From Novosphingobium sp. (GTDB lineage: Bacteria > Pseudomonadota > Alphaproteobacteria > Sphingomonadales > Sphingomonadaceae): a DNA stretch of 64,000 nt. Shown here piece after piece: positions 37,352 through 56,690 of this stretch. The notes below the pieces were generated by a model. It made no database searches. It was not told the DNA's origin and saw only the letters and a list, made by a program, of their open reading frames with translations. The position numbers and the translations under genes are program-made. The stretch is from the NCBI RefSeq assembly GCF_020852455.1, contig NZ_JADZAT010000028.1, positions 280,325-344,324 of the forward strand, given 5' to 3'. Each line of letters starts with the position of its first letter. Position 1 is the first letter of the stretch.

Positions 37352-38011
37352 CTAGGGCACTTCGAGCCGGTAGCCCACACCGCGGATCGTCTTGATCCGG
37401 TCATTGCCGACCTTGCGGCGCAGCCGCGCAACCTGCACTTCGACCGCATTGTCGGTCAATCCCGCGCCGTCAGCGCCCAGCGCAGCGCGAATCGCATCGC
37501 GGGTCACCACATGGTGCTGGCCCAGCATCAGCGCCTGGACCAGCCGGAATTCATTGCGGGTCAGATAAAGGCAGCGCCCATCAAGCCAGGCACAGCGCGC
37601 CTTCAAATCAAGATCGAGCCCGCCCTTGGTGATCCGGTTCGACGGCTGGCCGGAACTGCGCCGGATGATCGCCCGCAGCCGCGCGGCGACCTCTTCAGAG
37701 CGGACCGGCTTGAACACATAGTCATCGGCCCCGGCATCGAGCGCATCGACCTTGTCGCGCCAGGCGCCGCGCGGCGAGAGCACCAACAGCGGCTGGCCAA
37801 TCCCGGCATCGCGCAGCGGCTGGACCATGCTGGCCGGCGATGCATTGCCCAGTGTCTGATCGACCACCAGCGCGGCCGCACGCCCGGCGTTGACGTGCGC
37901 CAGCGCGGCTTCGAACGAGCCGACCTGTGTGATCTGGAATCCCGAACCGCCCAGCCGCTGGGCCAGCAGATCGGAAGCACCAGCCTGGTCTTCGATCAGC
38001 ATCAGATGCAT
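37352..38011 (-). CDS. OmpR-type response regulator (orphan)
   Basis: A 219-residue two-domain regulator. The receiver has LMLIEDQAG, a candidate phospho-Asp in LVVDQTLG and Lys in VFKPVRSEE. The winged-helix output domain has LTRNEFRLVQALMLGQHHVVTRDAIRAAL and VEVQVARLRRKVGNDRIKTIRGVGYRL. GGGGAG precedes the ATG at 38011; the track's start adds 54 non-homologous residues. No histidine kinase is in the window. Its place at the edge of the multiheme locus suggests it may control that locus, which is inference. Confidence 0.88.
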   Translation of the reverse strand: MHLMLIEDQAGASDLLAQRLGGSGFQITQVGSFEAALAHVNAGRAAALVVDQTLGNASPASMVQPLRDAGIGQPLLVLSPRGAWRDKVDALDAGADDYVFKPVRSEEVAARLRAIIRRSSGQPSNRITKGGLDLDLKARCAWLDGRCLYLTRNEFRLVQALMLGQHHVVTRDAIRAALGADGAGLTDNAVEVQVARLRRKVGNDRIKTIRGVGYRLEVP

Positions 38012-38090: not shown

Positions 38091-39401
38091 TCAAACGGTC
38101 CCGAACTTCGTTTCAACCTCGATCCCGATTTGGTGCAGAAATTGCGTGGGCAGCAGGCCGCCAGCGCAGACAATTACGCTGTCATTGGGCAGGCTTAGCA
38201 GGCCCTGCTCGGTTTCCAGCTCAATCGCCTCGGTCCCGATCGAGCGAACCTGGCTGCCCATCAGCGCAGTCATCGTTCCGTCAGCGATCAGCGCCGCCAC
38301 CCGGTCGCGGTTCTTGGCGCGGGCTCGCTGGAAGGCCTGGCCGCGATAGGACAGGGTTACCTGCGTACCGGGCTGATCGGCCAGCTGCGCGGCGGCTTCC
38401 AGCGCGCTGTCGCCTCCGCCCACCACCAGCACGCGCTGGCCGGCGTACTGTTCGGGATCGATCAGGCGATAGAGCACCTTGGACTGCTCTTCACCCGGCA
38501 CCCCCAGCGGGCGCGGCGTACCGCGCCGGCCGATCGCCAGCAGCACCGTCCGGGTGCGATAGCGCCCGCGCGAGGTGACCACCTCGAACAGGTCGCCGGT
38601 CCGCTCGACCTGGGTGACCTGTTCCTCGAACTGCGGCTTGAGCCCGGTCCGCGCCAGCACATCTTCCCAGAAGGCCAGCAATCGTTCCTTGCTGATCTCG
38701 CCAAACCGCACCTCGCCGATCAGTGGCAGCTTGGCCGGGGCGGTCATCACCACCTTGCCGCGCGGGAAGTGCGCGACAGTACCGCCCAGGCTCGACTGGT
38801 CGATCGTCACGAAGCGCAGGCCGGCTTCCATCGCGCCAAGGCTGGCGGCGATGCCGGCCGGACCGCAGCCGACGATCACCACGTCGAGCGCGGGATCGCC
38901 CACGGCAATCCGCCTGGCCTGCGCCGCCGCAGCGGCAATCGCCTGGCGGCCCTGCTCGATCGCGTTCTTGATCAGGCCCATCCCGCCCAGTTCGCCAGCG
39001 ATGTAAACGCCCGGCACGCTGGTTTCGAATTCGGGGCTGAGCAGCGGGATATCGACCCCCCGGGTGGCCGTGCCGAAGACCAGGGTGATGGCCTGGGTCG
39101 GACAGGCCGTAGCACAGGCCCCGTGACCCACGCACATGGTCGGTTCGATCAGCGCGGCCTTGCCGTCGATCACGCCCAGGATCTTCTTCTCGGGGCAGGC
39201 CCGAACACACGAGGCGCAGCCCAGGCACTTGGCCGGATCGATCACCGGGTGCAGCGAGTTGGGCTCCATCAAGCCGGCCTGGCGGTTGTCCTCCAGCACC
39301 TCGCGCGCCTTGGCCGAACGCCGCCTTGCCGCGAACGTCCAGACCGCCCAGATCCCGGCCAGGGGCAGGGCATAGACCAGCAGTAGCGGATCGAAAGCCA
39401 T
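38091..39401 (-). CDS. Membrane-anchored 4Fe-4S / FAD / NAD(P) oxidoreductase
   Basis: A 436-residue redox protein. One N-terminal transmembrane helix (LLLVYALPLAGIWAVWTF) comes first. A ferredoxin module follows with CLGCASCVRACP and CVGHGACATACP, the second having His in place of one Cys. A thioredoxin-reductase-like domain comes last, with FAD motif VIVGCGPAGIAASLGAMEAG and NAD(P) motif VLVVGGGDSALEAAAQLA. It could pass electrons between NAD(P)H, the quinone pool and the cytochromes encoded next door. It lies 2 bp from the CcmI-like gene, in the same operon. Confidence 0.88.
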   Translation of the reverse strand: MAFDPLLLVYALPLAGIWAVWTFAARRRSAKAREVLEDNRQAGLMEPNSLHPVIDPAKCLGCASCVRACPEKKILGVIDGKAALIEPTMCVGHGACATACPTQAITLVFGTATRGVDIPLLSPEFETSVPGVYIAGELGGMGLIKNAIEQGRQAIAAAAAQARRIAVGDPALDVVIVGCGPAGIAASLGAMEAGLRFVTIDQSSLGGTVAHFPRGKVVMTAPAKLPLIGEVRFGEISKERLLAFWEDVLARTGLKPQFEEQVTQVERTGDLFEVVTSRGRYRTRTVLLAIGRRGTPRPLGVPGEEQSKVLYRLIDPEQYAGQRVLVVGGGDSALEAAAQLADQPGTQVTLSYRGQAFQRARAKNRDRVAALIADGTMTALMGSQVRSIGTEAIELETEQGLLSLPNDSVIVCAGGLLPTQFLHQIGIEVETKFGTV

Positions 39402-39403
39402 GG

Positions 39404-40471
39404 TCAGGCGCCCGGCACTCCAACCGCCTTGGCTGCGGCATCGACCGTTGCCAGCCCGGCGGCATCCCCGGCCAGCGCCTTGCGCGCGGTGGCCAGATCC
39501 TTTGCGGCCTGGTCCTGCTGCTTCAGCACCATCCGCGAGCGCAGCAGCATGGCCCAGCCTTCGGGGTTCTTGGGGTTGGCAGCCAGCTTGCTCGCCAGCC
39601 CCGAAACCATCGAATCGACCGAAGCCTGACGCTGGTCAGCGGGCATCGCACTGGCGGCCGCCATCTGTTCAGGCGTTGGCCCGGCAACCCCGCCAGCCGG
39701 CGCGGCGGCGGCAGCAGAAGGCCCGGCAGCCTTGACCTTGAGCCGCCCGGACACGTCGATCCCCAGCTTCGCGGCCGTATCCTTGATCTGCTTTTGCACG
39801 TCAGGCTGCCACGGCGCATCGGCCGAACCGGAGTTGGCCAGCGCGATCCACTTGTCGAGCGCCTCCTTGGCCTTGCCGTTCTGGGCCAGCCACAGGCCAT
39901 CGAAATAGCGTGCCCGCGGCTCAGCCGGATCAAGCTGCAGCGCCTTGTCGAATTCCGCCTTGGCTTCGGGCGTCACCTTGCCCCCCGCAACCCCGACCAG
40001 CGCTTCGCCATAGCCGGCGCGCACGGTGGCATTGTTCGGCAGCAGCTGCAGCGCCCGCTTGTAGGGTGCCAGCGCCTGCTGCGGGCGCTGGGTCATGACA
40101 TAGGACCAGCCGAGCATCCGCCAGCCTTCGCCGTCATTGGGTTCCTTTTCAAGCCGCTGGGCCAGCCGCTGGATCATTGAATCGACATCATCGAGCTTCT
40201 GGTCGGCCCCGGCCACCGGTACGGCGGGAACGGATGATGTTTCATCCTCACCGGGCCGGAACAGCAGGATCGCTATGGCCGCAGCAACCAGTCCGCCCGC
40301 ACCAAGCAGCAACTTGCGGTTGGTTCCGGCGGCACCCGGCTCTGCCGCTGCGACAGAACTCTCGTCCGACGGCGCCGATCCACCCGGATCGCCATCGCGC
40401 GATTGCCAGACCCGCATGCCGACGATGCCAAGCGCGATTCCCGCCAAAGCGGTGAGGACATACTGCAACAT
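39404..40471 (-). CDS. CcmI/CycH-like TPR protein for cytochrome c maturation
   Basis: A 355-residue protein with a short N-terminal membrane segment (YVLTALAGIALGIVGMRVW) and a second helix (LLLGAGGLVAAAIAILLF). Two TPR-containing regions follow (QRLEKEPNDGEGWRMLGWSYVMTQRPQQAL and LDPAEPRARYFDGLWLAQNGKAKEALDKW). This is the layout of CcmI/CycH, which presents apocytochrome c to the CcmFH heme lyase. It is divergent from the cytochrome operon, whose 3' end carries ccmFGH, so the maturation set is split across the divergon. Confidence 0.8.
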   Translation of the reverse strand: MLQYVLTALAGIALGIVGMRVWQSRDGDPGGSAPSDESSVAAAEPGAAGTNRKLLLGAGGLVAAAIAILLFRPGEDETSSVPAVPVAGADQKLDDVDSMIQRLAQRLEKEPNDGEGWRMLGWSYVMTQRPQQALAPYKRALQLLPNNATVRAGYGEALVGVAGGKVTPEAKAEFDKALQLDPAEPRARYFDGLWLAQNGKAKEALDKWIALANSGSADAPWQPDVQKQIKDTAAKLGIDVSGRLKVKAAGPSAAAAAPAGGVAGPTPEQMAAASAMPADQRQASVDSMVSGLASKLAANPKNPEGWAMLLRSRMVLKQQDQAAKDLATARKALAGDAAGLATVDAAAKAVGVPGA

Positions 40472-40708: not shown

Positions 40709-41569
40709 ATGGCTACTAGGGCGCAAACATTCCAAGTTTCGGGTCAACGGACAGGGTTAACCGCCAGTTCGATCGAACGCATCGTATCCATGCTGGTGCT
40801 GGCCGGCGTGGTGGTGGCGATCGTTTACGGCTGGCTGCACCGTGACGAAGACTGGATCAACCCCGAACAGGGAATCGGCTACTGGCTGGGGATCCTGGGC
40901 GGCTCGATGATGCTGCTGTTGCTGGGCTATCCGCTGCGCAAGCGGGCGAAGCCGGCCAGCAAGAGCGTTGGCACGGTCGGCTTCTGGTTCCGCTTTCACA
41001 TGCTGCTGGGGCTGCTGGGGCCGCTGGCGATCCTGTACCATTCGCGGTTTTCCTGGGGCGCGCTCAACAGCGCAATGGCGCTGGGGGCGATGATTGTGGT
41101 GGCCAGCAGCGGCCTGATCGGCCGGTTCTTCTACTCACGCGTCCACCGCGGCTATTCCGGCCGCAAGCTTGAGCTGCGCGCGCTGAAGCAGGAAATGGAC
41201 GAAATGCTGGCCAAGATGGAAGCGGCCGGGATCTCGCATGAAGCAGTGCTGGCCGGGATCCAGCCGTTCGAGGATCGCGCGGTCAAGGCCGGCGGTGCCT
41301 TCTGGTCAAGCGCGGGTGCAGTGCTGACGCTGGGGGTCGAAACCCGCTTTGCCAAGCGCCGGATGCTGGCCGACCTGCCGCGCGGTGCCGACCGCCGCCT
41401 GCTGACCCTGCGCGCCTTGCTGGACGACTATTTCGAAGCGGTCCGCCGCGCTGCCGAGTTCGCATTCTATGACAGGCTGCTGCGGCTGTGGCACCTGCTG
41501 CACCTGCCGCTGTTCATCCTGCTGGTTGCCGCCGCCGTGCTGCATATCGTTGCGGTGCACATGTACTGA
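40709..41569 (+). CDS. Membrane cytochrome-b-like protein
   Basis: About 286 residues. Helices are near IVSMLVLAGVVVAIVYGW, GYWLGILGGSMMLLLLGY, FRFHMLLGLLGPLAILYHSRF, AMALGAMIVVASSGLIGRF and the C-terminal LWHLLHLPLFILLVAAAVLHIVAVHMY. Histidines in paired helices (FRFHMLLG, YHSRF, LWHLLH, LHIVAVH) are placed like b-heme ligands. A soluble helical segment separates helices 4 and 5. It is the first gene of the cytochrome operon and overlaps the next start (TGATG). An upstream ATG at 40658 is an alternative start. I infer it oxidises or reduces quinol and exchanges electrons with the periplasmic cytochromes. Confidence 0.75.
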   Translation: MATRAQTFQVSGQRTGLTASSIERIVSMLVLAGVVVAIVYGWLHRDEDWINPEQGIGYWLGILGGSMMLLLLGYPLRKRAKPASKSVGTVGFWFRFHMLLGLLGPLAILYHSRFSWGALNSAMALGAMIVVASSGLIGRFFYSRVHRGYSGRKLELRALKQEMDEMLAKMEAAGISHEAVLAGIQPFEDRAVKAGGAFWSSAGAVLTLGVETRFAKRRMLADLPRGADRRLLTLRALLDDYFEAVRRAAEFAFYDRLLRLWHLLHLPLFILLVAAAVLHIVAVHMY

Positions 41570-43338
41570 TGCGCAACTGGCGGGCGATCGTCTGGCTGCT
41601 GGTGCTATGCCTGGCGGCGCCCGTCATGGGGCAATCGATCATGGAAAAGCTGGTCACGCCAGGCCCGCTTTCCGGCGCCCATGCCAGGCTTGAGGCCAAG
41701 TGCGACAGCTGCCATTCCTCGTTCCGCAAGGAGGCGCAGAACGGGCGCTGCCTGGCCTGTCACAAGGGCGTGGCGACCGATGTTGCCACCGGGACCAAGT
41801 TCCATGGCAAGTTCAACCCGGCCCGCACCGGGGCCTGCAAGAGCTGCCATAGCGAGCACAAGGGCCGGGGCGGCCTCATTGTGCTGAACCAGCGCACCTT
41901 CAACCATGCCTTCACCGATTTCGCGCTGACCGGCGCGCATGCCCGGGCCAAGTGCACCAGCTGCCACCGCGGCAACGACTATCGCGGGCGTCCGCGCGAT
42001 TGCGCCGGGTGCCACGGGCCGTTCGATCCGCACAAGGGCCAGCTGGGCCGCAATTGCCAGAACTGCCACACCACCAGTGCCTGGAAGCCGGTTCAGGGCT
42101 TCAACCACGCCTCGACCGGGTTCGCGCTGACTGGTGCGCACCGCGCGGTGGCGTGCATGACCTGCCACGCCGGCCAGAAGTGGAAACTGCCCGAAACCTG
42201 CGTTTCGTGTCACGCCCGCGACGATGCGCATCGCGGCTCACGCGGGACCAATTGCGCCAGTTGCCACACCACGGCGAACTGGAATTCGGCCACCTTCGAT
42301 CACAGCACCACCGGGTTTCCGCTGGTCGGCCAGCATGCCACGGCGGCTTGCGCCGGCTGCCATGGTCCCGGCAATGCCAACAAGCACCCGGCGCGTGACT
42401 GCAATTCGTGCCATGCCAAGGACGATACCCACAAGGGCCAGAACGGCCCCAATTGCGCCAGTTGCCACAATCCGCGCAGCTGGACCCAGACCAGCTTCGA
42501 TCATGACACGATGACCCGCTTTGCGCTGAAGGGCGCGCACCGCCAGGCTCAGTGTCAGGCCTGCCACAAGCAGCCAGCCAAGCTGGTCAAGCCGCCGGTC
42601 ACCTGCATTGGCTGCCACACCCAGGACGATGCCCACAAGGGCGGCAACGGGCCGGACTGCGAACGCTGCCACACCGTCACCAGCTGGAAGGTGGTCAGCT
42701 TCAACCACAACACGATGACCCGTTTCCCGCTGGCCGGGAAACACGCCCAGGCCAAATGCGAAAGCTGCCACACCAAGCCGCCCAAGGAGCTGAAGCTGCA
42801 GACGCAGTGCGCCGCCTGTCATGCCAAGGACGACAAGCACCTTGGCAAGCTGGGACCGGATTGCGGCAAGTGCCACACGGCCGACGGCTGGGCGATCGGG
42901 GTCCGCTTCACCCATGACCTCACGCGCTTCCCGCTGCTGGGCAAGCATGCCCAGCTGGCCTGCACCGCCTGCCATGCCGACAAGACCTTCAGCGCCAAGG
43001 GCACCACCTGCGCCGCCTGCCATGCTGACGATCACCACAAGGGCACCCTGGGCACGCCGGCACCGTGCCAGACCTGCCACAATTCGACCGACTGGAAGGC
43101 CTGGCGCTTCAACCACGACACACAGACAAAATTCAGTCTGACCGGCAAGCACCAGGGGCTGATCTGTTCGGCCTGCCATGTCCGCGCCGGCGATCCGGCC
43201 CGGACCGGCAACCAGTGCATCGACTGCCACCGCCGCAACGATCCGCACCGCGGCGGCTTTGGCGAAGACTGCGCGCGGTGCCACACCACCAACAATTTCA
43301 GCGAGATCATCATTCGCAACGGGCGGCCCGGCGGTTGA
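41569..43338 (+). CDS. Periplasmic multiheme cytochrome c, 24 CxxCH motifs
   Basis: A 589-residue exported cytochrome with signal peptide MRNWRAIVWLLVLCLAAPVMG and 24 CxxCH motifs by manual count. Sites recur in groups of three per ~62-66 residues, with connecting segments such as FDHDTMTRFALKGAH that supply extra His for bis-His ligation. The repeated HKGQNGPNC and HKGGNGPDC segments show internal duplication. It resembles cytochrome c3/c7-like chains (class III). The start at 41569 overlaps the cytochrome-b stop. It probably carries electrons across the periplasm between the membrane cytochrome and the larger cytochrome downstream. Confidence 0.9.
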   Translation: MRNWRAIVWLLVLCLAAPVMGQSIMEKLVTPGPLSGAHARLEAKCDSCHSSFRKEAQNGRCLACHKGVATDVATGTKFHGKFNPARTGACKSCHSEHKGRGGLIVLNQRTFNHAFTDFALTGAHARAKCTSCHRGNDYRGRPRDCAGCHGPFDPHKGQLGRNCQNCHTTSAWKPVQGFNHASTGFALTGAHRAVACMTCHAGQKWKLPETCVSCHARDDAHRGSRGTNCASCHTTANWNSATFDHSTTGFPLVGQHATAACAGCHGPGNANKHPARDCNSCHAKDDTHKGQNGPNCASCHNPRSWTQTSFDHDTMTRFALKGAHRQAQCQACHKQPAKLVKPPVTCIGCHTQDDAHKGGNGPDCERCHTVTSWKVVSFNHNTMTRFPLAGKHAQAKCESCHTKPPKELKLQTQCAACHAKDDKHLGKLGPDCGKCHTADGWAIGVRFTHDLTRFPLLGKHAQLACTACHADKTFSAKGTTCAACHADDHHKGTLGTPAPCQTCHNSTDWKAWRFNHDTQTKFSLTGKHQGLICSACHVRAGDPARTGNQCIDCHRRNDPHRGGFGEDCARCHTTNNFSEIIIRNGRPGG

Positions 43339-43514: not shown

Positions 43515-46500
43515 ATGGGTGCCTTGCCGCGCAGAACGATCACGGCAATGCTGGGGTTCCTGATGGCGCTGCTGTTCGCAGTGCTAAGCCCTTCCGTGTC
43601 TGCAGCACCGCCAACCAAATTCGACCATTTCAAGACCGGCTTCCCGCTGACCGGCGCCCATGCCACGGTGAAGTGCGAAAGCTGCCACGCCAATGGCCAG
43701 TTCGACGGCACGCCCAGGGACTGCAAGGCTTGCCACAATTCGGTCCGCGCCACCGGCCTGCCGGCCAACCACCTGCGCACCGAGGACAATTGCGACAGCT
43801 GCCACACCACCAAACAGTGGCAGGTCAGCAAGTTCGATCACTCCAAGTATTCGGGCACCTGCGCCGGCTGCCACAACGGGGTGCAGGCGGTGGGCAAGCC
43901 ATCAAGCCACATCCAGACCGCGCAGGAATGCAGCGCCTGCCATACGACCAACAACTGGAACGCAGCCCGGTTTGACCATACCGGCGTTACCGGCAACTGC
44001 GCCAGTTGCCATGATGGCCGCAAGGCCACCGGCAAGGGCAGCACCCACCTGCCGACCACCAAGGATTGCAGCACCTGCCATGGCACCAACGGCTGGGCCG
44101 GTGCCAGATTCGATCACGCCGGGGTGACCGGCGATTGCGCCAGCTGTCACAACGGCACCACCGCCAAGGGCAAGCCGGCCAGCCACTTGCCGACCAACAA
44201 TGCCTGCGCCGATTGTCACAAGGTTGCAGCCTGGACTCCGGCGACTTTCAACCACGCCGATACCAGCGCGACCTGCTCGACCTGCCACAACGGGACCAGG
44301 GCCAAGGGCAAGGGCGCCACCCACATCGCCACCACCGCCGAATGCAGCCAGTGTCATACCAGCACGGCCTGGACCCCGGCCAGCTTCAGCCACAGCGGCG
44401 TAACCGGCAACTGCGCCAGTTGCCACAACGGCACCAGCGCCACCGGCAAATCGTCGAGCCACATCAGCACCAATACCAATTGCCAGGATTGCCACACCAC
44501 CACCGCCTGGGCCCCGGCCAAGGCGGTCAACCATGCCGACGTGATCGGCACCTGCTCGAGCTGCCACAACGGGACCAAGGCCAAGGGCAAGCCAAGTACC
44601 CACGTGCCCACCAGCCAGGAATGCTCCAGCTGCCACAGCACCGCCGCCTGGACCCCCGCAAGCTTCAACCACAGCGGGGTAACCGCAGCCTGTTCGACCT
44701 GTCACAACGGCACCCAGGCCACCGGCAAGTCGAGCGCGCATATCGCCACCAACAACAATTGCCAGGATTGCCACACCACTTCGGTCTGGACACCCGCCAA
44801 GGCGGTCAACCACGCCGACGTGATCGGCACCTGTTCGAGCTGTCACAACGGCACCAAGGCCAAGGGCAAGAGCGCGACCCATATTGCCACCACGGCAGAA
44901 TGCAGCCAGTGTCACTCCACCAATGGCTGGACCCCGGCGAACTTCAACCACGCCAATGCCACCGGCACCTGCTATTCCTGCCACAATGGCACCAATGCCA
45001 CCGGCAAATCATCGACCCATATCAACACCAACACCAATTGTGCTGATTGCCACACCACCACGGCCTGGGCTCCGGCCAAGACGGTCAATCATGCTGATGT
45101 GATCGGCACCTGTTCCAGCTGCCACAACGGCACCAAGGCCAAGGGCAAATCGGCCACGCACATCCCGACCACGCAGGAATGTTCAACCTGCCACAGCACC
45201 ACAGCCTGGACCCCGGCAACCTTCAGCCACAGCGGCGTGACCGCAGCCTGCTCGACCTGCCACAACGGCACCAATGCGACGGGCAAAAGCGCCAGCCACA
45301 TCACCACCAACAACAACTGCCAGGACTGCCACACCACTTCGGTCTGGACACCCGCCAAGGCGGTCAACCATGCCGATGTGATCGGCACCTGTTCCAGCTG
45401 TCACAATGGCACCAAGGCCAGTGGCAAGAGCGCGACCCATATCGCCACCACCGCCGAATGTTCGACCTGCCACAGCACGACCGCCTGGACCCCGGCGAAC
45501 TTCAGCCACGCCAACGCCACGGGCTCTTGTGCGTCGTGCCACAACGGCACCAACGCGACGGGTAAATCCGCAACGCACATCAACACCAACAGCAACTGCC
45601 AGGATTGCCACACCACCGTGGCCTGGGCCCCGGCCAAGGCGGTCAACCATGCCGACGTGATCGGCACCTGCTCCAGCTGCCACAACGGCACCAAGGCCAG
45701 CGGCAAGAGCGCGACCCACATCGCCACCACCGCCGAATGTTCGACCTGCCACAGCACCACCGCCTGGACCCCGGCGAACTTCAGCCACAGCAATGTGACC
45801 GGCACCTGCGCTTCGTGCCACAACGGCACCAATGCCACCGGCAAGAGTGCAACGCACATCAACACCAACAGCAATTGCCAGGATTGCCACACCACCACCG
45901 CCTGGGCTCCGGCCAAGACGGTCAACCACGCCGACGTTATCGGCACCTGTTCGAGCTGCCACAACGGCAGCACTGCGATGGGCAAGCCGGCCACCCACAT
46001 CGCCACAACCGCGCAGTGCAGCGATTGCCATTCCACCACCGCGTGGACCCCGGCGAACTTCAGTCACAGCAATGTGACCGGCAGCTGCTATTCGTGCCAC
46101 AACGGCACCAATGCCACCGGCAAATCGGCCACCCATATCGCCACCAACAATGTCTGCGAAGACTGCCACACCAGCGCCGCCTGGGCTCCGGCCAAGACGG
46201 TCAACCACAACGATGTGATCGGCACCTGCTCAAGCTGCCACAACGGCAGCGTGGCCCTGGGCAAGCCCGCGACCCATATCGCCACCACCGCGCAGTGCAG
46301 CGATTGCCATTCCACCACCGCGTGGACCCCAGCCAATTTCAGCCACGCCAACGTGACCAGCAGTTGTTCGACCTGCCACAACGGCACCCAGGCGACCGGC
46401 AAGAACGCGACCCACGTCAACACCACCAACACCTGCGGCGATTGCCACACCACCGTCGCCTGGGTCCCGATCAAGACGTTCAATCACGCAGACGCGATCG

Positions 46501-47204
46501 GCACCTGCGCCAGCTGCCACAACGGCACCGCCGCGCCGGGCAAATCGCCCACGCACATCAATTCGACCAGCAATTGCGATTATTGCCACGTGACCACCGC
46601 CTGGACTGCGGCGACGATGGATCACACCCAGGCGCTTGGCACCTGCGCCAGCTGTCACAACGGCACCACCGCCATGGGCAAGCCGGCCACGCACATTGCC
46701 ACCACTGCCGATTGCAGCACCTGCCACCGCACCACTGCCTGGCTGCCCGCCTCGGTCGATCACACCACTGTCGGGACCAATTGTTCGAGCTGCCACAACG
46801 GCACCAATGCCACCGGCAAATCGGCCACCCATTTCATCACCACGCTGCAATGCGGAACCTGCCACCGCACCAGCGCCTGGGTGCCGACGCTGACCTTCAC
46901 CCACAGCTCGCCAAACTATCCGGGTACCCACTCCCGCGCGCTGCTGTGCAGCGATTGTCACACCACCAATTCGCAGACTGTGCCCTATCGCTCCCCCAGC
47001 TACACGGGCACCTGCGCGGCGTGCCACTCCAATGACTACAAGCAGAGCGAGCACAAGAAATATGAAAGCCCGACAACGGCTTACTACACTGTGTCCGAGC
47101 TGCGCGACTGCACCGGCGCCTGCCACCTCTATACCAACAGCTCGATGACCACGATCAAGGAACGGCGATCGGGAGAGCATCGGGTTAGTTCTTCCGACTT
47201 CTGA
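43515..47204 (+). CDS. Giant multiheme cytochrome c, about 49 CxxCH motifs
   Basis: A 1229-residue exported protein (signal peptide MLGFLMALLFAVLSPSVSA). I count 49 CxxCH motifs plus one CTGACH near the C-terminus, about one heme per 25 residues. The N-terminal module (KFDHFKTGFPLTGAH) resembles the 24-heme neighbour. The rest is built of alternating 46- and 47-residue units. Each unit holds two CxxCH and two further His (GKxxTH and NH/SH), the number needed for bis-His coordination. The final ~100 residues break the pattern. The ribosome site is weak, and a GC-rich hairpin lies just upstream. An extended heme wire is the natural reading, but no structure supports it yet. Confidence 0.9.
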   Translation: MGALPRRTITAMLGFLMALLFAVLSPSVSAAPPTKFDHFKTGFPLTGAHATVKCESCHANGQFDGTPRDCKACHNSVRATGLPANHLRTEDNCDSCHTTKQWQVSKFDHSKYSGTCAGCHNGVQAVGKPSSHIQTAQECSACHTTNNWNAARFDHTGVTGNCASCHDGRKATGKGSTHLPTTKDCSTCHGTNGWAGARFDHAGVTGDCASCHNGTTAKGKPASHLPTNNACADCHKVAAWTPATFNHADTSATCSTCHNGTRAKGKGATHIATTAECSQCHTSTAWTPASFSHSGVTGNCASCHNGTSATGKSSSHISTNTNCQDCHTTTAWAPAKAVNHADVIGTCSSCHNGTKAKGKPSTHVPTSQECSSCHSTAAWTPASFNHSGVTAACSTCHNGTQATGKSSAHIATNNNCQDCHTTSVWTPAKAVNHADVIGTCSSCHNGTKAKGKSATHIATTAECSQCHSTNGWTPANFNHANATGTCYSCHNGTNATGKSSTHINTNTNCADCHTTTAWAPAKTVNHADVIGTCSSCHNGTKAKGKSATHIPTTQECSTCHSTTAWTPATFSHSGVTAACSTCHNGTNATGKSASHITTNNNCQDCHTTSVWTPAKAVNHADVIGTCSSCHNGTKASGKSATHIATTAECSTCHSTTAWTPANFSHANATGSCASCHNGTNATGKSATHINTNSNCQDCHTTVAWAPAKAVNHADVIGTCSSCHNGTKASGKSATHIATTAECSTCHSTTAWTPANFSHSNVTGTCASCHNGTNATGKSATHINTNSNCQDCHTTTAWAPAKTVNHADVIGTCSSCHNGSTAMGKPATHIATTAQCSDCHSTTAWTPANFSHSNVTGSCYSCHNGTNATGKSATHIATNNVCEDCHTSAAWAPAKTVNHNDVIGTCSSCHNGSVALGKPATHIATTAQCSDCHSTTAWTPANFSHANVTSSCSTCHNGTQATGKNATHVNTTNTCGDCHTTVAWVPIKTFNHADAIGTCASCHNGTAAPGKSPTHINSTSNCDYCHVTTAWTAATMDHTQALGTCASCHNGTTAMGKPATHIATTADCSTCHRTTAWLPASVDHTTVGTNCSSCHNGTNATGKSATHFITTLQCGTCHRTSAWVPTLTFTHSSPNYPGTHSRALLCSDCHTTNSQTVPYRSPSYTGTCAACHSNDYKQSEHKKYESPTTAYYTVSELRDCTGACHLYTNSSMTTIKERRSGEHRVSSSDF
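44411..46520 (+). repeat. 279-bp tandem coding repeat inside the giant cytochrome
   Basis: The same lysine codon before the (Ala/Thr)-Val-Asn-His segment ends at 44522, 44801, 45080, 45359, 45638, 45917, 46196 and 46475 (Phe for Val in the last). These are eight anchors spaced exactly 279 bp (93 residues, four CxxCH per unit). The half-unit is 138-141 bp. Outer limits are approximate. Exact spacing with high DNA similarity points to recent amplification or gene conversion. Confidence 0.9.
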
Positions 47205-47220
47205 TCCACGGGGAAAAATC

Positions 47221-49890
47221 TTGAGCCTTCGTCGCGACTTCTGCAGCCCTACCGCGTTAACTATCGCATCGGCGATGGCCGCTACCGCGGGCGTGGTGCT
47301 GCCCAGCCCCGCTTTCGCCCAGTCGGTTTCGGACGATGCCCTGGCCGACCTGCAGGTCCAGAAGGTTGGCGATTGCACCAACCTGACGATCACCTTCAAC
47401 ACCCGGGTCCAGTTGCAGGGTTACTTTCCGGATCTGGCCGGGCGCGAACTGCATGTGCGCGTCCAGCCGCTCGATTCCACCGCGATCGGGCTTGGTTCGG
47501 ATTCGCTGCGCACGCCGGCCAGCGTGCCCGAACTGCGCTCGGTTTCCTATGAAGGCAGCAGCGCCGGCGGGCCGATCCTGTCGCTGTTCTTCACCCGCGA
47601 CACTGCCTTCAAGGTTGAGGCTGGCGCACTGCCCACCCAGCTGGTGATCAGCCTGAGCGCCCCGGAAAAAGCCGGGACCTGCGCTGTTTCGAACCAGGCC
47701 TTGCCCGCCGGCGTCGGTGCTGGCGCCGGCCCGGGCCAGGGCGGCGCGGCCATGGCCCAGGCGCCCAGCGGGTCCTATGTCATCAACCTCAGCTCAACCC
47801 CGGGCGCAGTCCCGCCGGTTTCAGAAACACAGGCCCAGGCGCTGACCGGGCGGGTGCTCTACGAAACCCAGTTCGAACGCGATTCGCAGACCTGGCATCG
47901 GTTGCGGCTGGGCTTTTTCGACAGCCGCGAACAGGCGGATGCCGCGCGCAAGCAATTGCTGGGTGCCTATCCCGAAGCCTGGGTGGTGAAAATCACCCCG
48001 GCCGAACGCGAACAGGCGATCACCGCGCCGCTGGCACTGGCCGGACCGGCCACGGCCGCGCCGACCGCATCCGCCCCTCCGGTCGCCATGGTCGGCAGCG
48101 AAGCCGATGCCGCGGAAACCGCGCGGCTGATCGGTGAGGCCGAAGGTGCGATCAAGGACAACAATTCGGACCGGGCGATCCAGCTGCTGACCAACGCAGC
48201 GCAAAAGCCCGAGAATGCCAACACCGCGCGCGCGATCGAGCTGCTGGGGCTGGCGCGCGAAAAGAAGGGGCAGAACGCCCATGCCCGCGCTCAGTACGAA
48301 GAATACCTGCGCCGCTATCCCAGCGGCGAGGGGACTGACCGGGTACGCCAACGGTTGGCCGCGCTGGACGGCAGCGGCTCCGGCGGCGGCCCGCTGCGCC
48401 AGGCCAGCGGGATCGCTGCGGGCGGGGCCGGCAAGTGGAAGTGGGGCCTGCGCGGCAGTGTCTCGCAATTCTATTTCCGCGACCAGGGCCGCACCAGCAC
48501 GCTGACCACTTCGTCCACCTTGGGTGACGAAGTTGACAATTCGGTCAACGTCAACCAGCTGCTGACCACCGGCGATGTGACCATTTCGGGCGGCAACGAT
48601 CGCCGGATGTTCCAGATCCGCGCCGCCGGGTCCTATACCAAGAACTTCGGAACCAGCACCTCGATCACCACGATCGACAACGGCACCGAAACGCAGACCT
48701 TCCGGTCGAAGCCGGGCGGCGGGATCGGTTCGATCAGCGCGCTCTATTTCGATTACAGCGACAACGATCTCAACACCCAGCTGCGGATCGGGCGCCAGAC
48801 CCGCAATTCGCAGGGCGTGCTGGGCCGGTTCGATGGCGCTCTGCTGGGCTTCCAGGCCAACCCGCACCTGCGCCTGAACGCCGTGGCCGGTTTCCCGGTG
48901 CTGTCATCGCGCCAGACCTATGTGAACACCGATCGCGCCTTTTACGGCGCCAGCGTCGATTTCGGGGCCAAGCGCAGCCCGGTGCAGTTCACGCTCTACT
49001 GGTTCGACCAGCATGCCAGGGGCGGGTTTATCGATCGCCGCTCGGTCGGGATCGAAAGCCGGCTGCTGAAGAAGAACTTCAACGCCTATGCGATGCTCGA
49101 CTATGATGTGAAGTTCGGCCAGCTCAACCTGGGGCTGCTGACGCTGAACTACAATTTCCCCGATACCTCCAGCCTCAGCCTGACTGCGGACTATCGCCGT
49201 TCGCCATTGCTGACGACCACCAATGCCCTGATCGGCCAGTTCGATACGATCAACAGCGTGCCCTTCACCAGCCTGGCCGGACTGAAGCCGTTCTTCACCG
49301 ATGACCAGATCTACCGCATGGCGCAGGATCGCACGCTGATCGCCAAGTCGCTGACCCTCACCTATTCGCGGCCGATCACCAGAAAGCTGCAGCTCAGCAC
49401 CGACTTTACCCTGACCGATACCGGCGGCACGCCCGGTACTGCGGCAACGGCCGGCACGCCCGAGATTCAGGCCATGCCGGCGATCGGCAAGGAGTATTAC
49501 TATGGGGTCCAGCTGATCGGGTCCGATCTGCTGATGGGCAGCGATATCTACATTCTGTCCGGCCGCTATGCCGATACCGCCACCGCGCGGATCTATACCG
49601 CTGATTTCAATGCCCGCCTGCCGATCACCAAATCGTTCCGCCTCAGCCCGCGCCTGCGCTATGGCTTTCGCGACAACAAGCCGGCAGGAGCGGTGGCCAA
49701 TCCCGGCACCTTCAAACAGTTCCAGCCAACCGTGCGGCTTAACTATTATCCGATCAAGAACAGCGAGATCGAGATCGAATTCGGTGGTAACTTCACCCGG
49801 CAGACGATGTGGAATTCGACGACTTCGGCCTATGACCGGGTCAATGAAAAGGGCTGGGTGCTCAGCGCCGGCTATCGTCTGGACTTCTGA
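47221..49890 (+). CDS. Outer-membrane beta-barrel with AMIN-like, SPOR and TPR regions
   Basis: An 889-residue exported protein from a TTG at 47221, 16 bp after the giant cytochrome. After a signal peptide (ending SPAFAQ), residues ~36-160 form a beta-rich AMIN-like domain. Residues ~210-265 match a SPOR domain (peptidoglycan-binding type), and ~300-385 hold TPR-like helices (RAIQLLTNAAQKPENANTARAIELLGLAREKKGQ). From ~405 to the end, long amphipathic beta-strands finish with YRLDF, a terminal Phe typical of outer-membrane barrels. In context it is the likely porin or surface partner of the multiheme cytochromes. No MtrB-type CxxC was found. Confidence 0.8.
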   Translation: MSLRRDFCSPTALTIASAMAATAGVVLPSPAFAQSVSDDALADLQVQKVGDCTNLTITFNTRVQLQGYFPDLAGRELHVRVQPLDSTAIGLGSDSLRTPASVPELRSVSYEGSSAGGPILSLFFTRDTAFKVEAGALPTQLVISLSAPEKAGTCAVSNQALPAGVGAGAGPGQGGAAMAQAPSGSYVINLSSTPGAVPPVSETQAQALTGRVLYETQFERDSQTWHRLRLGFFDSREQADAARKQLLGAYPEAWVVKITPAEREQAITAPLALAGPATAAPTASAPPVAMVGSEADAAETARLIGEAEGAIKDNNSDRAIQLLTNAAQKPENANTARAIELLGLAREKKGQNAHARAQYEEYLRRYPSGEGTDRVRQRLAALDGSGSGGGPLRQASGIAAGGAGKWKWGLRGSVSQFYFRDQGRTSTLTTSSTLGDEVDNSVNVNQLLTTGDVTISGGNDRRMFQIRAAGSYTKNFGTSTSITTIDNGTETQTFRSKPGGGIGSISALYFDYSDNDLNTQLRIGRQTRNSQGVLGRFDGALLGFQANPHLRLNAVAGFPVLSSRQTYVNTDRAFYGASVDFGAKRSPVQFTLYWFDQHARGGFIDRRSVGIESRLLKKNFNAYAMLDYDVKFGQLNLGLLTLNYNFPDTSSLSLTADYRRSPLLTTTNALIGQFDTINSVPFTSLAGLKPFFTDDQIYRMAQDRTLIAKSLTLTYSRPITRKLQLSTDFTLTDTGGTPGTAATAGTPEIQAMPAIGKEYYYGVQLIGSDLLMGSDIYILSGRYADTATARIYTADFNARLPITKSFRLSPRLRYGFRDNKPAGAVANPGTFKQFQPTVRLNYYPIKNSEIEIEFGGNFTRQTMWNSTTSAYDRVNEKGWVLSAGYRLDF

Positions 49891-49919: not shown

Positions 49920-51869
49920 TTGATTGCTGAAGCCGGGCTGGCCGCCCTCTGGCTCGCCGCCGTAATGGCCTTGCTGCAACTGGTGCTGGGCGCCCTGGCG
50001 GTGGGCCGCAAGCAGTTGTCGCTGGCCGGGGCCATGGTTCCGGTCACGCTGGTCCAGGCCGGGCTGGTCAGCTTTGCCTTTGCCTGTCTGATCGCGGTCT
50101 TTGCCCGTTCGGACATGACCGTGCTGCTGGTCGCCGCCAACAGCCATTCGGCCAAGCCGATGATCTACAAGATTGCCGGCACCTGGGGGAACCACGAAGG
50201 CTCGATGCTGCTGTGGGTGACGATCCTGGGGCTGTCGGGCGCCACGATCGCGCTGTTTGAACGCAAGCTGCGGATCGATACCAAGCTGGCGACCCTGGCC
50301 GCGCAGGCGGCGATCGCGCTGGGCTTTTACGCCTTCCTGCTGTTCGCTTCGAACCCCTTCGCGCGGATCTCGGGCGTGATCGAGGGGGCCGGGCTCAATC
50401 CGCTGCTGCAGGATCCCGGTCTCGCCTTTCATCCGCCCACGCTTTACGCCGGTTATGTCGGCATGTCGGCGGCCTTCTCGTTCGCGGTGGGGGCATTGCT
50501 GACCCGCAATGTCAGTCCCGATTTTGCCCGCGCGATGCGGCCCTGGATTCTGGGTGCGTGGATCTTCCTGACCGTGGGGATCACCGCCGGCTCCTATTGG
50601 GCCTATTACACGCTGGGCTGGGGCGGCTGGTGGTTCTGGGACCCGGTCGAAAACGCCAGCCTGATGCCCTGGCTGGCGGCCACCGCGCTGCTCCATTCGG
50701 TCACCGTGCTGGCCACCCGCGACGGCCTGCGCGCCTGGACGATCATGCTTTCGGTGCTGGCCTTCTCGATGTCGATGGTCGGGACCTTCCTGGTCCGCTC
50801 GGGGATCCTCACCTCGGTCCATTCCTTCGCGGTCGATCCCGATCGCGGGCTGTTCATCCTGGCGCTGCTGGCGATCTACATCGCCGGGGCGCTGGCGTTG
50901 TTCGCGGCACGGGTCGGCACTGTGCTGGAAGGCAACCGGTTCGACCTGTTCAGCCGCGAGGCCGCGCTGGTGGTCAACAACCTGATCCTGACCGTGATCC
51001 TGGTGATCGTCATGGCCGGGACGCTCTATCCGCTGATCCTCGAAGCGGCGACCGGGGCAAAGATTTCGGTCGGGGCGCCCTATTTCAATGCGGCGGCGGG
51101 TCCGCTGGCGCTGATCCTGATGCTGCTGATCGGTGCCGGGCCGCTGCTGCGCTGGCGCAAGGACCTGCCGAAGGCGCTGCTTGACCGGATGGCGCCCGCG
51201 CTGCTGGCCGGGGCCGCCGCGCTGCTGCTGCTCGCGGCCTTTGCCGGGCGGATCGGCGTGCTGCCGCTGCTGGGGCTGGTCGCCGCTGCGGTGGTGGGCG
51301 TCGCCAGCCTTGCGCCGCTGTGGAAGCGCGATCTCAAGCGCGCGCCGCTGTTCACCTGGGGCATGGTGATCGCCCACCTGGGCTGCGCGGTCAGCATGGC
51401 GGGGATGGCCTGCGATGCCGCCTTCATCAAGGAAAGCATGGTCGCGATGGCCACAAATGAAACGCGCCCGATCGGCCCGTTCGAGGTGACCCTGCTGGGG
51501 GTGCGCGAAAAGCCGGGGCCAAATTACCAGGCGCTGGAGGCCGTACTTTCGGTGCGCCGCGCCGGTGGGGGCGAACCGTTCGAAATGCTGCCCCAGCTCC
51601 ATGCCTTCAGCGATCCACAGATGACCACCAACCAGGCCGCGATCAAGACCTTCTGGAACGGCCAGCTCTATCTGGTCCTGGGTGAAAATTCGGACGGGCA
51701 GAACTTCCTGATGCGGCTGTGGTGGAAACCCTTCGTGACCCTGATCTGGCTGGGCGGGATCCTGATCGCGCTGGGCGGCGTGCTGGCGCTGCTGGGCCGG
51801 GTCAAGCGCGATGTCTGGAACAATCGCTGGCCCTGGCAGGCCGCGATTGGCGCGGAGGTTCGGTCATGA
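49920..51869 (+). CDS. ccmF: Heme lyase subunit CcmF
   Basis: A 649-residue polytopic protein of the CcmF/NrfE family that ligates heme to apocytochrome c. The heme-handling WGGWWFWDPVENASLMPW motif is present, with many helices and the conserved early motif TWGNHEGSMLLWV. The TTG at 49920 has GGAG seven bases upstream. It follows the barrel gene by 29 bp, so it is part of the same operon, and it overlaps ccmG by 4 bp. This looks like a dedicated set for the neighbouring cytochromes rather than the housekeeping one. Confidence 0.95.
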   Translation: MIAEAGLAALWLAAVMALLQLVLGALAVGRKQLSLAGAMVPVTLVQAGLVSFAFACLIAVFARSDMTVLLVAANSHSAKPMIYKIAGTWGNHEGSMLLWVTILGLSGATIALFERKLRIDTKLATLAAQAAIALGFYAFLLFASNPFARISGVIEGAGLNPLLQDPGLAFHPPTLYAGYVGMSAAFSFAVGALLTRNVSPDFARAMRPWILGAWIFLTVGITAGSYWAYYTLGWGGWWFWDPVENASLMPWLAATALLHSVTVLATRDGLRAWTIMLSVLAFSMSMVGTFLVRSGILTSVHSFAVDPDRGLFILALLAIYIAGALALFAARVGTVLEGNRFDLFSREAALVVNNLILTVILVIVMAGTLYPLILEAATGAKISVGAPYFNAAAGPLALILMLLIGAGPLLRWRKDLPKALLDRMAPALLAGAAALLLLAAFAGRIGVLPLLGLVAAAVVGVASLAPLWKRDLKRAPLFTWGMVIAHLGCAVSMAGMACDAAFIKESMVAMATNETRPIGPFEVTLLGVREKPGPNYQALEAVLSVRRAGGGEPFEMLPQLHAFSDPQMTTNQAAIKTFWNGQLYLVLGENSDGQNFLMRLWWKPFVTLIWLGGILIALGGVLALLGRVKRDVWNNRWPWQAAIGAEVRS

Positions 51870-52396
51870 ACCGCAAGGTGCTGTTGTGGGCCCCCTTCGT
51901 GCTGGTGGTGGCACTGTTTGGTGCCTTCTTTGTGGGGCTCAGGAACCCTGATGATCGCGTGATCGCCTCGCAGATGGTCGGCAAGCCGCTGCCCGAATTC
52001 AGTGCTGCGGCGGTGATGCCTGGCCAGCCGGGAACCGCCAGCAGCGACTACCGCGACGGCAAGCCGCGGATGATCAACATCTTCGCGTCATGGTGCGTGC
52101 CCTGCGCCGCCGAGGCCCCGATGCTGGCCCAGCTCAAGGCCGCCGGCGCCCAGATCGATGGCATCGCCGTCCACGATGCGCCCGAACCGCTGGCCAAGTT
52201 CCTGGCCCAGAACGGAAATCCGTTCAGCCGGATCGGCCTTGACCCCGAAGGCCGCGCACAGATCGCGTTCGGATCGGCCGGGGTGCCGGAAACCTTCGTG
52301 GTCGATGGCCAGGGCAAGATCATCTATCAGCACATTGGGATCGTCGAACCCAAGGACGTGCCGATGCTGCTCAACCTGCTGGGGATCAAGCCATGA
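51866..52396 (+). CDS. ccmG: Thiol:disulfide interchange protein CcmG/DsbE
   Basis: A 176-residue periplasmic thioredoxin-like protein with an N-terminal anchor (LLWAPFVLVVALFGAFFVGL) and the active site WCVPC. It has the family's GVPETFVVDGQGKIIYQHIG segment with the cis-Pro. It reduces the apocytochrome CxxCH cysteines before heme attachment. It overlaps ccmF and ccmH by 4 bp each, indicating coupled translation. Each large cytochrome here needs many such reductions, which fits the location. Confidence 0.95.
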   Translation: MNRKVLLWAPFVLVVALFGAFFVGLRNPDDRVIASQMVGKPLPEFSAAAVMPGQPGTASSDYRDGKPRMINIFASWCVPCAAEAPMLAQLKAAGAQIDGIAVHDAPEPLAKFLAQNGNPFSRIGLDPEGRAQIAFGSAGVPETFVVDGQGKIIYQHIGIVEPKDVPMLLNLLGIKP

Positions 52397-52788
52397 AGCC
52401 TTCAGCCCTGCTCGCCGCTGTCGCTCTGGCCCTTGCCGCGCCCGCGTTCGCCCAGGATCTCGCCGAAATCTCGCTGGCCGATCCCAGGCAGGAAGCCCAG
52501 GCCGTGGCCCTGATGGATTCGATTCGCTGCGTGGTCTGCCAGGGCCAGCCGGTTTCGGGCAGCAATGCCAGCCTGGCGGGCGACATGCGCCGCCTGATCC
52601 GCGAGCGGATCGCCGCCGGCGACAAGCCCGAGGATGTCCGCGCGATGCTGGTTTCGAAATACGGTGACTGGGTCAGCTTCAAGCCGGTGGTCAAACCCGC
52701 CACCCTGCCGCTGTGGATCGTGCCGCTGCTGGCGCTGCTGGGCGGCGTCTGGCTGGTGTCGCGCCGGGTCAGGCTGGGGCGCGGCTGA
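52393..52788 (+). CDS. ccmH: Cytochrome c maturation protein CcmH
   Basis: A 131-residue protein with signal peptide (LLAAVALALAAPAFA), the redox motif RCVVCQGQPVSGSNASLAGDMR and a C-terminal anchor (LWIVPLLALLGGVWLV). This is the short CcmH form, which together with CcmF and CcmI forms the heme lyase. Its stop overlaps the next ATG (TGATG). Confidence 0.94.
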   Translation: MKPSALLAAVALALAAPAFAQDLAEISLADPRQEAQAVALMDSIRCVVCQGQPVSGSNASLAGDMRRLIRERIAAGDKPEDVRAMLVSKYGDWVSFKPVVKPATLPLWIVPLLALLGGVWLVSRRVRLGRG

Positions 52789-53855: not shown

Positions 53856-55350
53856 CTGGGCGCCCTTCACAGCCGCCTGCTCGCGCGCGGCGGCGCGCTT
53901 TGCGCTGGCGCTGACGAATGCCGTGCAGCACCAGCGCGAGCTGCTTGCCAGCATCGTTTCGACCAACGCCGATTGTGCCTTCGGGCGGGAACACGACTTT
54001 GCCGCGATCACCGATTTCGAAGCCTATTGCCGGCAGGTTCCGGTGCGCGGCCATTCCGGCTTTGCCCCGCGGATTGCGCGCATGGCAGGCGGCGAAGCCG
54101 ATTGCCTGACGTCCGAGCTGGTGATCGCGTTCGAGGAGACCGGGGGCACTGGCGGGGCCAAGCTGGTGCCCTATACCGCAGCGGGGCTCGACGGGTTCCG
54201 GCGGGCCGTGCTGCCGTGGCTGGGTGACCTGATCGCGCGCCGGCCCGCGCTGGCCAGGGGCCGCGCCTATCTTACGATCAGTCCGGCGACCCGGGCCCGG
54301 CAAGTCACCCCGGGCGGGCTGGCGATCGGGCTCGATTCAGACGCCGCCTATCTTGGTGCTGACCTGGCCCCGGCGCTGGCCGCGCTGCTGGCTGTGCCAC
54401 CGACGCTGGGCCAGTTGCGCGATCCGGGGCAATGGCAGGTAGAGACCCTTGCCGCGCTGATCGCTGCGCCTGATCTGTCGTTCGTTTCACTGTGGAGCCC
54501 GACCTTCCTGCTCGCGCTGCTCGGCTCGCTCGAAGGCCATGCCGAGGCGGTGCTCGCGCGGCTTTCCCCGGCAGAGCGCCGCCGTCTGCAAGCGGCGATG
54601 GCCGGGGCCGATCTCGACACCGAACGGCTGTGGCCCGCGCTCGATTGCATCTCGTGCTGGTGCGACGGAATCTCGGCCGGCTATGCCCGGCGGCTGCAGG
54701 CCCAGTTCCCGCACGCCGCGATCGAGCCCAAAGGCCTGCTGGCAACCGAAGCCGCCGTAACCGTACCCTGGGGACCGGGCGGCGCCTGCGTTCCCGCAGT
54801 CGATAGCTGCCTGATCGAATTCCACGATGCCGCCGGCACTCCGCATCTGTGCGACACCTTGCAGCAAGGCGAAGCCTATCGGATCGTCGTCAGCACCCGG
54901 AGCGGGCTCTACCGCTACGATCTGGGTGACCTGGTCGAATGTGTCGGCCACCGGGGGACAGTGCCGCTGCTGCGGTTCATTGGACGCGCCGGGGTCAACA
55001 GCGATCTGGTCGGCGAGAAGCTTGACGATGGCTTTGTCGGCGAGGCGCTGGCCGCGCTGGCCGGACCGGCGGTGCTGGCCGCACGAGCCGATCCGGCCGG
55101 CTATGTGCTGGTGATGGAGACGCCCGAACCCGGGGCGCTGAATCGCGTCGAAGCCGCGCTGGCACGCAACCCGCACTATGCCCATGCCCGGCGGATGGGC
55201 CAGCTGGCACCGCTCGGGCTGGTCCGGCGCGCGGATCTTTCTGTGCAATTGACGCACCGCGGGATTGCACAGGGCCGCCGGCTGGGCGATCTGAAGCCCC
55301 TGGCCCTGCTGCCCCTGGGCAGCGGCTCTGAGGAGTGGCTGTTGCCGTGA
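53842..55350 (+). CDS. GH3-family acyl-adenylate/amidosynthetase-like enzyme
   Basis: A 502-residue protein of the GH3 fold, related to plant auxin-amido synthetases and their bacterial homologues. The P-loop-like ATP motif is EETGGTGGAKLVPYT, the core is YRYDLGDLVECVG and the conserved hinge is LRFIGRAGVNSDLVGEKL. Such enzymes activate a carboxylate as AMP ester and join it to an amine. Substrates here are unknown. The start overlaps the upstream gene. Confidence 0.87.
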   Translation: MTGADWAPFTAACSRAAARFALALTNAVQHQRELLASIVSTNADCAFGREHDFAAITDFEAYCRQVPVRGHSGFAPRIARMAGGEADCLTSELVIAFEETGGTGGAKLVPYTAAGLDGFRRAVLPWLGDLIARRPALARGRAYLTISPATRARQVTPGGLAIGLDSDAAYLGADLAPALAALLAVPPTLGQLRDPGQWQVETLAALIAAPDLSFVSLWSPTFLLALLGSLEGHAEAVLARLSPAERRRLQAAMAGADLDTERLWPALDCISCWCDGISAGYARRLQAQFPHAAIEPKGLLATEAAVTVPWGPGGACVPAVDSCLIEFHDAAGTPHLCDTLQQGEAYRIVVSTRSGLYRYDLGDLVECVGHRGTVPLLRFIGRAGVNSDLVGEKLDDGFVGEALAALAGPAVLAARADPAGYVLVMETPEPGALNRVEAALARNPHYAHARRMGQLAPLGLVRRADLSVQLTHRGIAQGRRLGDLKPLALLPLGSGSEEWLLP

Positions 55351-56690
55351 AGATTGCGCTGCTTTCGCCCAAAGGGCCGCTTTACCGCAATCGGGGCGGC
55401 ATTTTCCGCAAGTCCTTGCGGTATCAGCCGCTGACCCTGACCACGCTTGCCGCGCTGGTCCCCTCCGAACTCGATCCCGAATTCGTCCTTTACGATGAAG
55501 GCACCGGCGATATCCCGCTTGATCTTGAAGCGGACATTGTCGGCATCACGGTGATTACCGGCAGTTCCACGCGGGCCTATGAAATTGCCGACGAACTGCG
55601 CCGCCGCGGGCGCACTGTCGTGCTTGGCGGGCCGCACGTCACCCTGATGCCCGACGAGGCCCAGCAGCATGCCGATGCGATCTGCGTCGGCTATGCCGAG
55701 GAAAGCTGGCCGCAGCTGCTGCGCGATTTCGCGCGGGGGCAGATGCAGCCGCGTTACCAGCAGGCCGCCAATTTCCAGCTGACCAACCTGCCATTCGCGC
55801 GGCGCGAGCTGCTCGATGGCCGCAACTACCTGACCCAGGCGGTGTTCGAAGCGACGCGGGCCTGTGCGCACAATTGCGAATTCTGCGTTGCGCCCAGCGC
55901 CTGGGGGCGCAAGCAATTCCAGAAACCGGTAGCGCATGTGGTGGAGGACATTCGCCGGGTCGGCAGCCGCAAGATCCTGTTCATCGACCTCAACCTGGTA
56001 TCCGATCCGGCCTATGCCCGCGAATTGTTTACCGCGCTGATCCCGCTGAAAGTGCGCTGGTTCGGTCTTTCCACCAGCCTGATCGGGCGCGATCCGGCGC
56101 TGATGGACCTGATGGCGCAAAGCGGCTGCACCGGCCTGCTGATCGGGTTTGAATCGATTTCACGCGCCGGGCTGGGTTCGATCGACAAGCGCTTCAACGA
56201 TCCGAACCTTTATGCCGAACTGGTCCGCGATCTGCACAAGCGCGGGATCACGATTCAGGGCTGCTTCGTGTTCGGCAACGATGCCGATACCGAGGACACC
56301 TTCGATGCCACTGCCGATTTCGTGATCCGCAGCCAGATCGACCTGCCCCGCTTCGCGATCCTGACGCCCTTTCCCGGCACGCCGATCCACACACGGTTTG
56401 AACGCGAAGGCCGGATCCTGACCCGCGACTGGGAGCTTTACGATGGCCAGCACGTGGTGTTCCGCCCGCTTGGCATGACACCGGCAGCGCTGCTTGCCGG
56501 ACACGAGCGCGCGTGGAAAGCGGTCTATGGTTGGAAGCCGATCCTGTCGCGGCTGCGCCATGCCCGCGGGCAGATCCCGCTCTCGCTGGCGGCCAACCTT
56601 GGCTACCGGTTCTACGCCCACCACCTTCACACCCATTACACCTGCGATTGGCCGCATGCCGCCGACGAAGGTGAGCCGCTGCCGGCATGA
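55347..56690 (+). CDS. B12-binding-domain radical SAM protein (1)
   Basis: About 447 residues from a GTG at 55347 that overlaps the GH3 stop (GTGA); a GTG at 55335 is possible. The N-terminal half is a cobalamin-binding-like Rossmann domain (VVLGGPHVTLMPDEAQQHADAICVGYAEESWPQLL). The radical SAM cluster motif is CAHNCEFC at about residue 175, followed by LLIGFESISRAGL and TPFPGTPIH. No DxHxxG base-on motif is seen, which is common in this class. Members methylate or rearrange unactivated carbons, often in lipids. Confidence 0.9.
   Translation: MKIALLSPKGPLYRNRGGIFRKSLRYQPLTLTTLAALVPSELDPEFVLYDEGTGDIPLDLEADIVGITVITGSSTRAYEIADELRRRGRTVVLGGPHVTLMPDEAQQHADAICVGYAEESWPQLLRDFARGQMQPRYQQAANFQLTNLPFARRELLDGRNYLTQAVFEATRACAHNCEFCVAPSAWGRKQFQKPVAHVVEDIRRVGSRKILFIDLNLVSDPAYARELFTALIPLKVRWFGLSTSLIGRDPALMDLMAQSGCTGLLIGFESISRAGLGSIDKRFNDPNLYAELVRDLHKRGITIQGCFVFGNDADTEDTFDATADFVIRSQIDLPRFAILTPFPGTPIHTRFEREGRILTRDWELYDGQHVVFRPLGMTPAALLAGHERAWKAVYGWKPILSRLRHARGQIPLSLAANLGYRFYAHHLHTHYTCDWPHAADEGEPLPA

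Follow-up and report, generated by a model that had tools for sequence, protein, structure and literature searches.

A PCC3 porin with AMIN-like, SPOR and TPR regions beside multiheme cytochromes in Novosphingobium sp.

The analysed DNA of Novosphingobium sp. (64,000 nucleotides; the whole stretch is referred to as the window) contains a porin gene directly downstream of two multiheme cytochrome genes. The genes of this region are listed below with their positions in the window.

37352..38008, minus strand, OmpR-type response regulator
38091..39401, minus strand, flavoprotein (Pyr_redox_3 and Fer4) with two 4Fe-4S motifs
39404..40471, minus strand, CcmI/CycH-like TPR protein
40709..41569, plus strand, PCC3 inner-membrane protein, likely di-haem b, with two WX3HX13H motifs and SGXXG
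41569..43338, plus strand, 24-heme cytochrome c of the PCC3 periplasmic type (24 CXXCH)
43515..47204, plus strand, 49-heme cytochrome c of the PCC3 extracellular type (49 CXXCH)
47221..49890, plus strand, PCC3 porin of 889 aa (signal peptide, AMIN-like domain, SPOR, TPR, barrel)
49920..51869, plus strand, CcmF, second copy in the genome
51863..52396, plus strand, CcmG/DsbE-like thioredoxin
52393..52788, plus strand, CcmH

PCC3 was defined in 2017 by He et al., including the motifs of the inner-membrane protein (PMC5566968). In the searched text of He et al. (PMC5566968) and Hoover et al. (PMC10734462), its components are a porin, two cytochromes and an inner-membrane protein. All of these are found here. 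The inner-membrane protein carries two WX3HX13H motifs and SGXXG (read as WFRFH...H, SGLIG and WHLLH...H), the cytochromes are very heme-rich, the cluster includes a β-barrel porin and the gene order agrees. Counting of the CXXCH motifs gave the expected 24 and 49 for the two neighbouring cytochromes. Homologous porins occur in 28 other loci, all with the PCC3 inner-membrane protein and cytochromes. Judged from the genes here and from these related loci, the porin-cytochrome cluster is a complete PCC3, with the 889-aa protein as its porin. Since the locus has every defining feature of PCC3 that was tested, and PCC3 was described in 2017 (PMC5566968), the original reading as a new type of conduit is not upheld. 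The placing of the 24-heme cytochrome in the periplasm and of the 49-heme cytochrome outside the cell follows the published PCC3 model and is putative.

The porin reading frame is intact. Its start codon is TTG, GGGG lies seven bases ahead of it, and the gene is separated by 16 bases from the gene of the 49-heme cytochrome and by 29 bases from ccmF. The signal peptide spans approximately residues 1–33. The periplasmic part (residues 34–403) comprises about 370 residues, close to the ~400 predicted. In an AlphaFold2 model derived from an alignment of 29 sequences (pLDDT 81, pTM 0.54), an eight-strand domain (41–146) is followed by a SPOR fold (186–257), helices (294–383) and 22 strands (407–889). 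The linkers between the domains are of low confidence and the relative placement of the domains is thus unreliable. The domains of the porin are as follows.

47341..47658, plus strand, AMIN-like β domain, residues 41–146 (AlphaFold2 and Foldseek)
47776..47991, plus strand, SPOR domain, residues 186–257 (PF05036; strand-helix-strand-strand-helix-strand in the model)
48100..48369, plus strand, TPR-type helical block, BamD/CpoB-like, residues 294–383 (five helices in the model)
48439..49887, plus strand, outer-membrane β-barrel, residues 407–889 (22 predicted strands, mostly of high confidence)

Modelled alone, the AMIN-like domain has a pLDDT of 92. Its top three PDB matches in Foldseek are PilQ B2 (4aqz), AmiC (4bin) and PilQ (4av2), all with a probability of 1.00, though with E-values of only 3e-3 to 1e-2 and a TM of about 0.5. 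AmiC and PilQ are AMIN-containing proteins. Matches to small heat-shock proteins are weak and rank below these three. The Pfam HMM search of the porin yielded no AMIN match and a PDB sequence search with the profile of the domain returned chance matches only. The AMIN-like segment that had been proposed therefore stands as a tentative resemblance of fold, not as an HMM match. PilQ is an AMIN-containing protein and its AMIN domains bind peptidoglycan (PMC5285504).

The SPOR domain is identified by Pfam. PF05036 matches residues 206–257 with E = 7.7e-8 and 33 bits, above the curated cut-off of 21 bits. The SPOR profile of the porin family matches the NMR structure of the DamX SPOR domain (E 2.5e-8), and DamX is the closest in sequence. 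The glycan contacts of RlpA include R302, R309 and R311, and the ligand of SPOR domains is denuded septal glycan (PMC6895207). Residues R302, L307, R309 and R311 of RlpA align on R220, W225, R227 and R229 of the porin. The stretch through which the family profile aligns to RlpA is VRNQQILHRVRLG. This alignment alone is below significance (E about 0.08), yet it agrees with the significant alignment to DamX. The near-universal, glycan-contacting Gln of SPOR domains is replaced by Asn189 in the porin, and the basic patch is retained. A match to the PF05036 profile does not depend on this Gln. An amide residue (Asn or Gln) occupies this position in 13 of the 16 SPOR-bearing PCC3 porins, with Asn in place of the usual Gln in most copies. 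Degenerate SPOR copies exist as well, e.g. in locus L045.

Pfam matches to TPR are sub-threshold in the porin itself; NCBIfam detects a BamD/YfiO-type TPR in 28/29 members of the family alignment. The barrel part has no Pfam match and ends with an aromatic residue (GYRLDF). A Foldseek search with the whole porin retrieved only generic porins with a TM below 0.3 by query, AlgE among them, so that the family of the barrel is not assigned by Foldseek. The predicted combination of a barrel with SPOR and TPR regions in one protein beside multiheme cytochromes is borne out by Pfam, NCBIfam, AlphaFold2 and the CXXCH counts.

Searches with the single porin sequence detected two relatives, one in G129 and one in Sandarakinorhabdus oryzae, both about 50% identical. 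A match in locus L003 was discarded as an unrelated TonB-receptor-like barrel. With the inner-membrane protein as query, PCC3-type matches came from further families of the order to which the window belongs, and 33 out of 274 genomes from a different class of the phylum, presumably Gammaproteobacteria, had one as well. In total, 46 PCC3 stretches were examined and 29 distinct, nearly complete porins were aligned. The architecture is conserved in these 29 porins and is thus not due to chance. The TPR region and the barrel are filled in all of them. The SPOR segment is filled in 16/29 porins by alignment and in 14/29 by Pfam HMM; it is absent in 13/29 and changes state five times or more on the tree. 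The SPOR domain is therefore not essential. At first, SPOR looked like an insertion specific to the lineage of the window, as loci from its own order and class suggested. This was rejected because distant PCC3 porins carry it. The AMIN-like domain is fused to 24 or 25 of the 29 porins and forms a separate ORF beside the porin in L102 and L111. In the porins of L093, L100 and L104, SPOR is present and an AMIN-like domain was not found. The L111 porin, inspected by eye, appears to have two tandem SPOR-like segments without a fused AMIN-like domain. Every one of the 29 loci has at least one AMIN-like or SPOR module, fused or adjacent.

Small separate AMIN-like ORFs (about 150–200 aa, secreted-looking) directly adjoin PCC3 porins of the other class, and some come in addition to a fused copy. 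They are located at L096:5866-6330, L097:2507-2953, L098:12631-13212, L102:13815-14402, L107:4556-5158, L111:5232-5816 and L112:14447-15028.

The locus shares with published PCC3 the four genes, the motifs of the inner-membrane protein, the very heme-rich cytochromes and the low number of residues per heme. In the searched parts of the literature, the PCC3 porin is described as plain and large with up to 42 predicted transmembrane regions (PMC5566968; PMC10734462). The searched text of these two papers does not mention an AMIN/SPOR/TPR arm, peptidoglycan or a flavoprotein; "spor" occurs only in references. Among the main texts of open-access papers, none was found that joins a porin-cytochrome system with a SPOR domain. 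PCC3 is thus known, and the AMIN/SPOR/TPR architecture of its porin is, provisionally, undescribed.

MtrCAB, MtoAB and PioAB likewise combine an outer-membrane barrel with a periplasmic multiheme cytochrome. Homology of the PCC3 porin to MtrB or PioB was not detectable; the PF11854 profile is unmatched and hhalign against an MtrB-type porin gives a probability of 2%. In seven MtrB/PioB porins the barrel family match starts at residues 47–78 and no SPOR/AMIN/TPR arm is present (7/7), in line with their prior description as simple barrels. The secretin PilQ is likewise an outer-membrane channel, and its N-terminal AMIN fold, which binds peptidoglycan, is tentatively resembled by the AMIN-like domain of the PCC3 porin. 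However, PilQ is oligomeric whereas the PCC3 porin is a single-chain barrel, and the sequences are unrelated. DamX, FtsN and RlpA have the SPOR fold in common with the porin, but are cell-division or lytic proteins and none is a barrel.

Electron transfer, binding of peptidoglycan and contact between TPR and cytochrome are putative functions, assigned from the families to which the components belong. Most probably (about 60%), the arm serves to fasten the conduit to peptidoglycan and to place a periplasmic heme wire of fixed size. The barrel would let the two cytochromes meet in the outer membrane, the 24-heme protein at the periplasmic side and the 49-heme protein outside. The arm of ~370 residues would anchor the barrel to peptidoglycan via its SPOR and AMIN-type domains. 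A heme wire that spans the periplasm would in this way have its distance and its path across the wall fixed, and would end at the b-type inner-membrane protein. The BamD/CpoB-type TPR block, at the periplasmic mouth of the barrel, could dock the periplasmic cytochrome and hold or guide it. The conserved glycan-binding patch strengthens the predicted scaffold role in wall docking and cytochrome holding, which is plausible. Periplasmic cytochromes hardly vary in size (21 or 24 hemes), whereas the outer ones range from 11 hemes to 84 or more, which fits a periplasmic cytochrome spanning a fixed gap. The AMIN-like or SPOR module in all 29 loci and the missing arm of the MtrB/PioB porins also speak for the anchored conduit. 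Weighing against it are the 13 porins that lack SPOR, the Asn at the Gln position, the weak E-values of the AMIN fold matches, the degenerate SPOR copies and the behaviour of PCC3 on Fe(II) in S. lithotrophicus ES-1 (see below). Published PCC3 medians, from the searched text, are 21 hemes (periplasmic) and 34 hemes (extracellular), and the cytochrome sizes were already known (PMC10734462). Very heme-rich reading frames lie at L110:12177-19904 (84 CXXCH or more in 2575 codons, the frame running past the edge of the stretch), L106:957-6122 (69 hemes) and L108:16409-19903 (47 hemes, after the porin).

The SPOR and AMIN domains may alternatively bring the porin to denuded peptidoglycan at the septum or the poles for insertion at division, i.e. 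target rather than anchor it. The affinity of SPOR domains for denuded septal glycan (PMC6895207) and the midcell recruitment directed by the PilQ AMIN domains, there for type IV pili (PMC5285504), agree with this, but SPOR-less PCC3 loci are common. Targeting is compatible with anchoring and, as the sole role, unlikely. Quite unlikely is a mere docking platform, with the cytochromes or the stand-alone AMIN-like partner as ligands of the SPOR and AMIN-type folds and no contact to peptidoglycan. The conserved Gln-to-Asn change, an AMIN-like sequence that has diverged beyond the reach of the Pfam model and the protein-binding type of the BamD/CpoB-like TPR would suit such a platform. The retained basic patch together with Trp225 argues for glycan binding instead, and the best-known carriers of both folds are wall-binding proteins.

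The polysaccharide exporters BcsC, PgaA and PelB have TPR fused to a barrel. With the same layout, the porin could be a secretion channel that exports or displays the 49-heme cytochrome and houses no wire. The listed ORFs next to the cytochromes include no other exporter gene, and AlgE is among the Foldseek matches. This match is weak, however, and shared with many porins, the BcsC, PgaA and PelB families are unmatched among the families listed for the 29 porins, and the operon is of the porin-cytochrome type. A secretion channel is thus very unlikely. The question of how porin-cytochrome wires cross the wall and are positioned in it becomes testable with a porin that has wall-binding domain types of its own. 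With the arm as a marker, PCC3 porins can be recognised and their strand counts revisited.

In 27/29 porin loci (L004, L005, L043, L045, L047–L055, L093–L111 and others), a flavoprotein with two 4Fe-4S motifs adjoins the PCC3 genes. It could be the cytoplasmic electron partner of PCC3. As a tentative extension, somewhat doubtful as a whole, PCC3 may be a class of conduits tied to peptidoglycan by their own porin, with a wire of fixed length threaded at a set place and the flavoprotein as fifth component. No biochemical test of PCC3 and no extracellular electron transfer by it was found in the searched PCC3 literature; in S. lithotrophicus ES-1, PCC3 is down-regulated on Fe(II) (PMC8788666). 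RuBisCO was not found in the genome, and autotrophic growth by this route is thus unsupported.

The cytochrome c maturation genes (ccmF, ccmG, ccmH and the ccmI-like gene) are interlocked with the PCC3 genes. The other ccmF of the genome is located elsewhere (G000:C25), so that ccmF, ccmG and ccmH of the window look like a dedicated maturation set, and Sandarakinorhabdus oryzae has these genes in the same arrangement.

Many genomes of the same family (L057–L062) contain a distant relative of the inner-membrane protein beside a protein with 10 CXXCH (e.g. L057:9265-10236 with L057:7444-9264); a PCC3-type porin was not noticed beside it. In other loci the genes of the flavoprotein and the inner-membrane protein flank one for a secreted-looking Sel1/ankyrin-repeat protein (L048:10595-12460 and L053:7529-9499; equivalents occur in L049–L055). 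Positions 55335-58048 of the window encode two adjacent B12-binding/radical-SAM-like proteins with CX3CX2C, as read by eye only.
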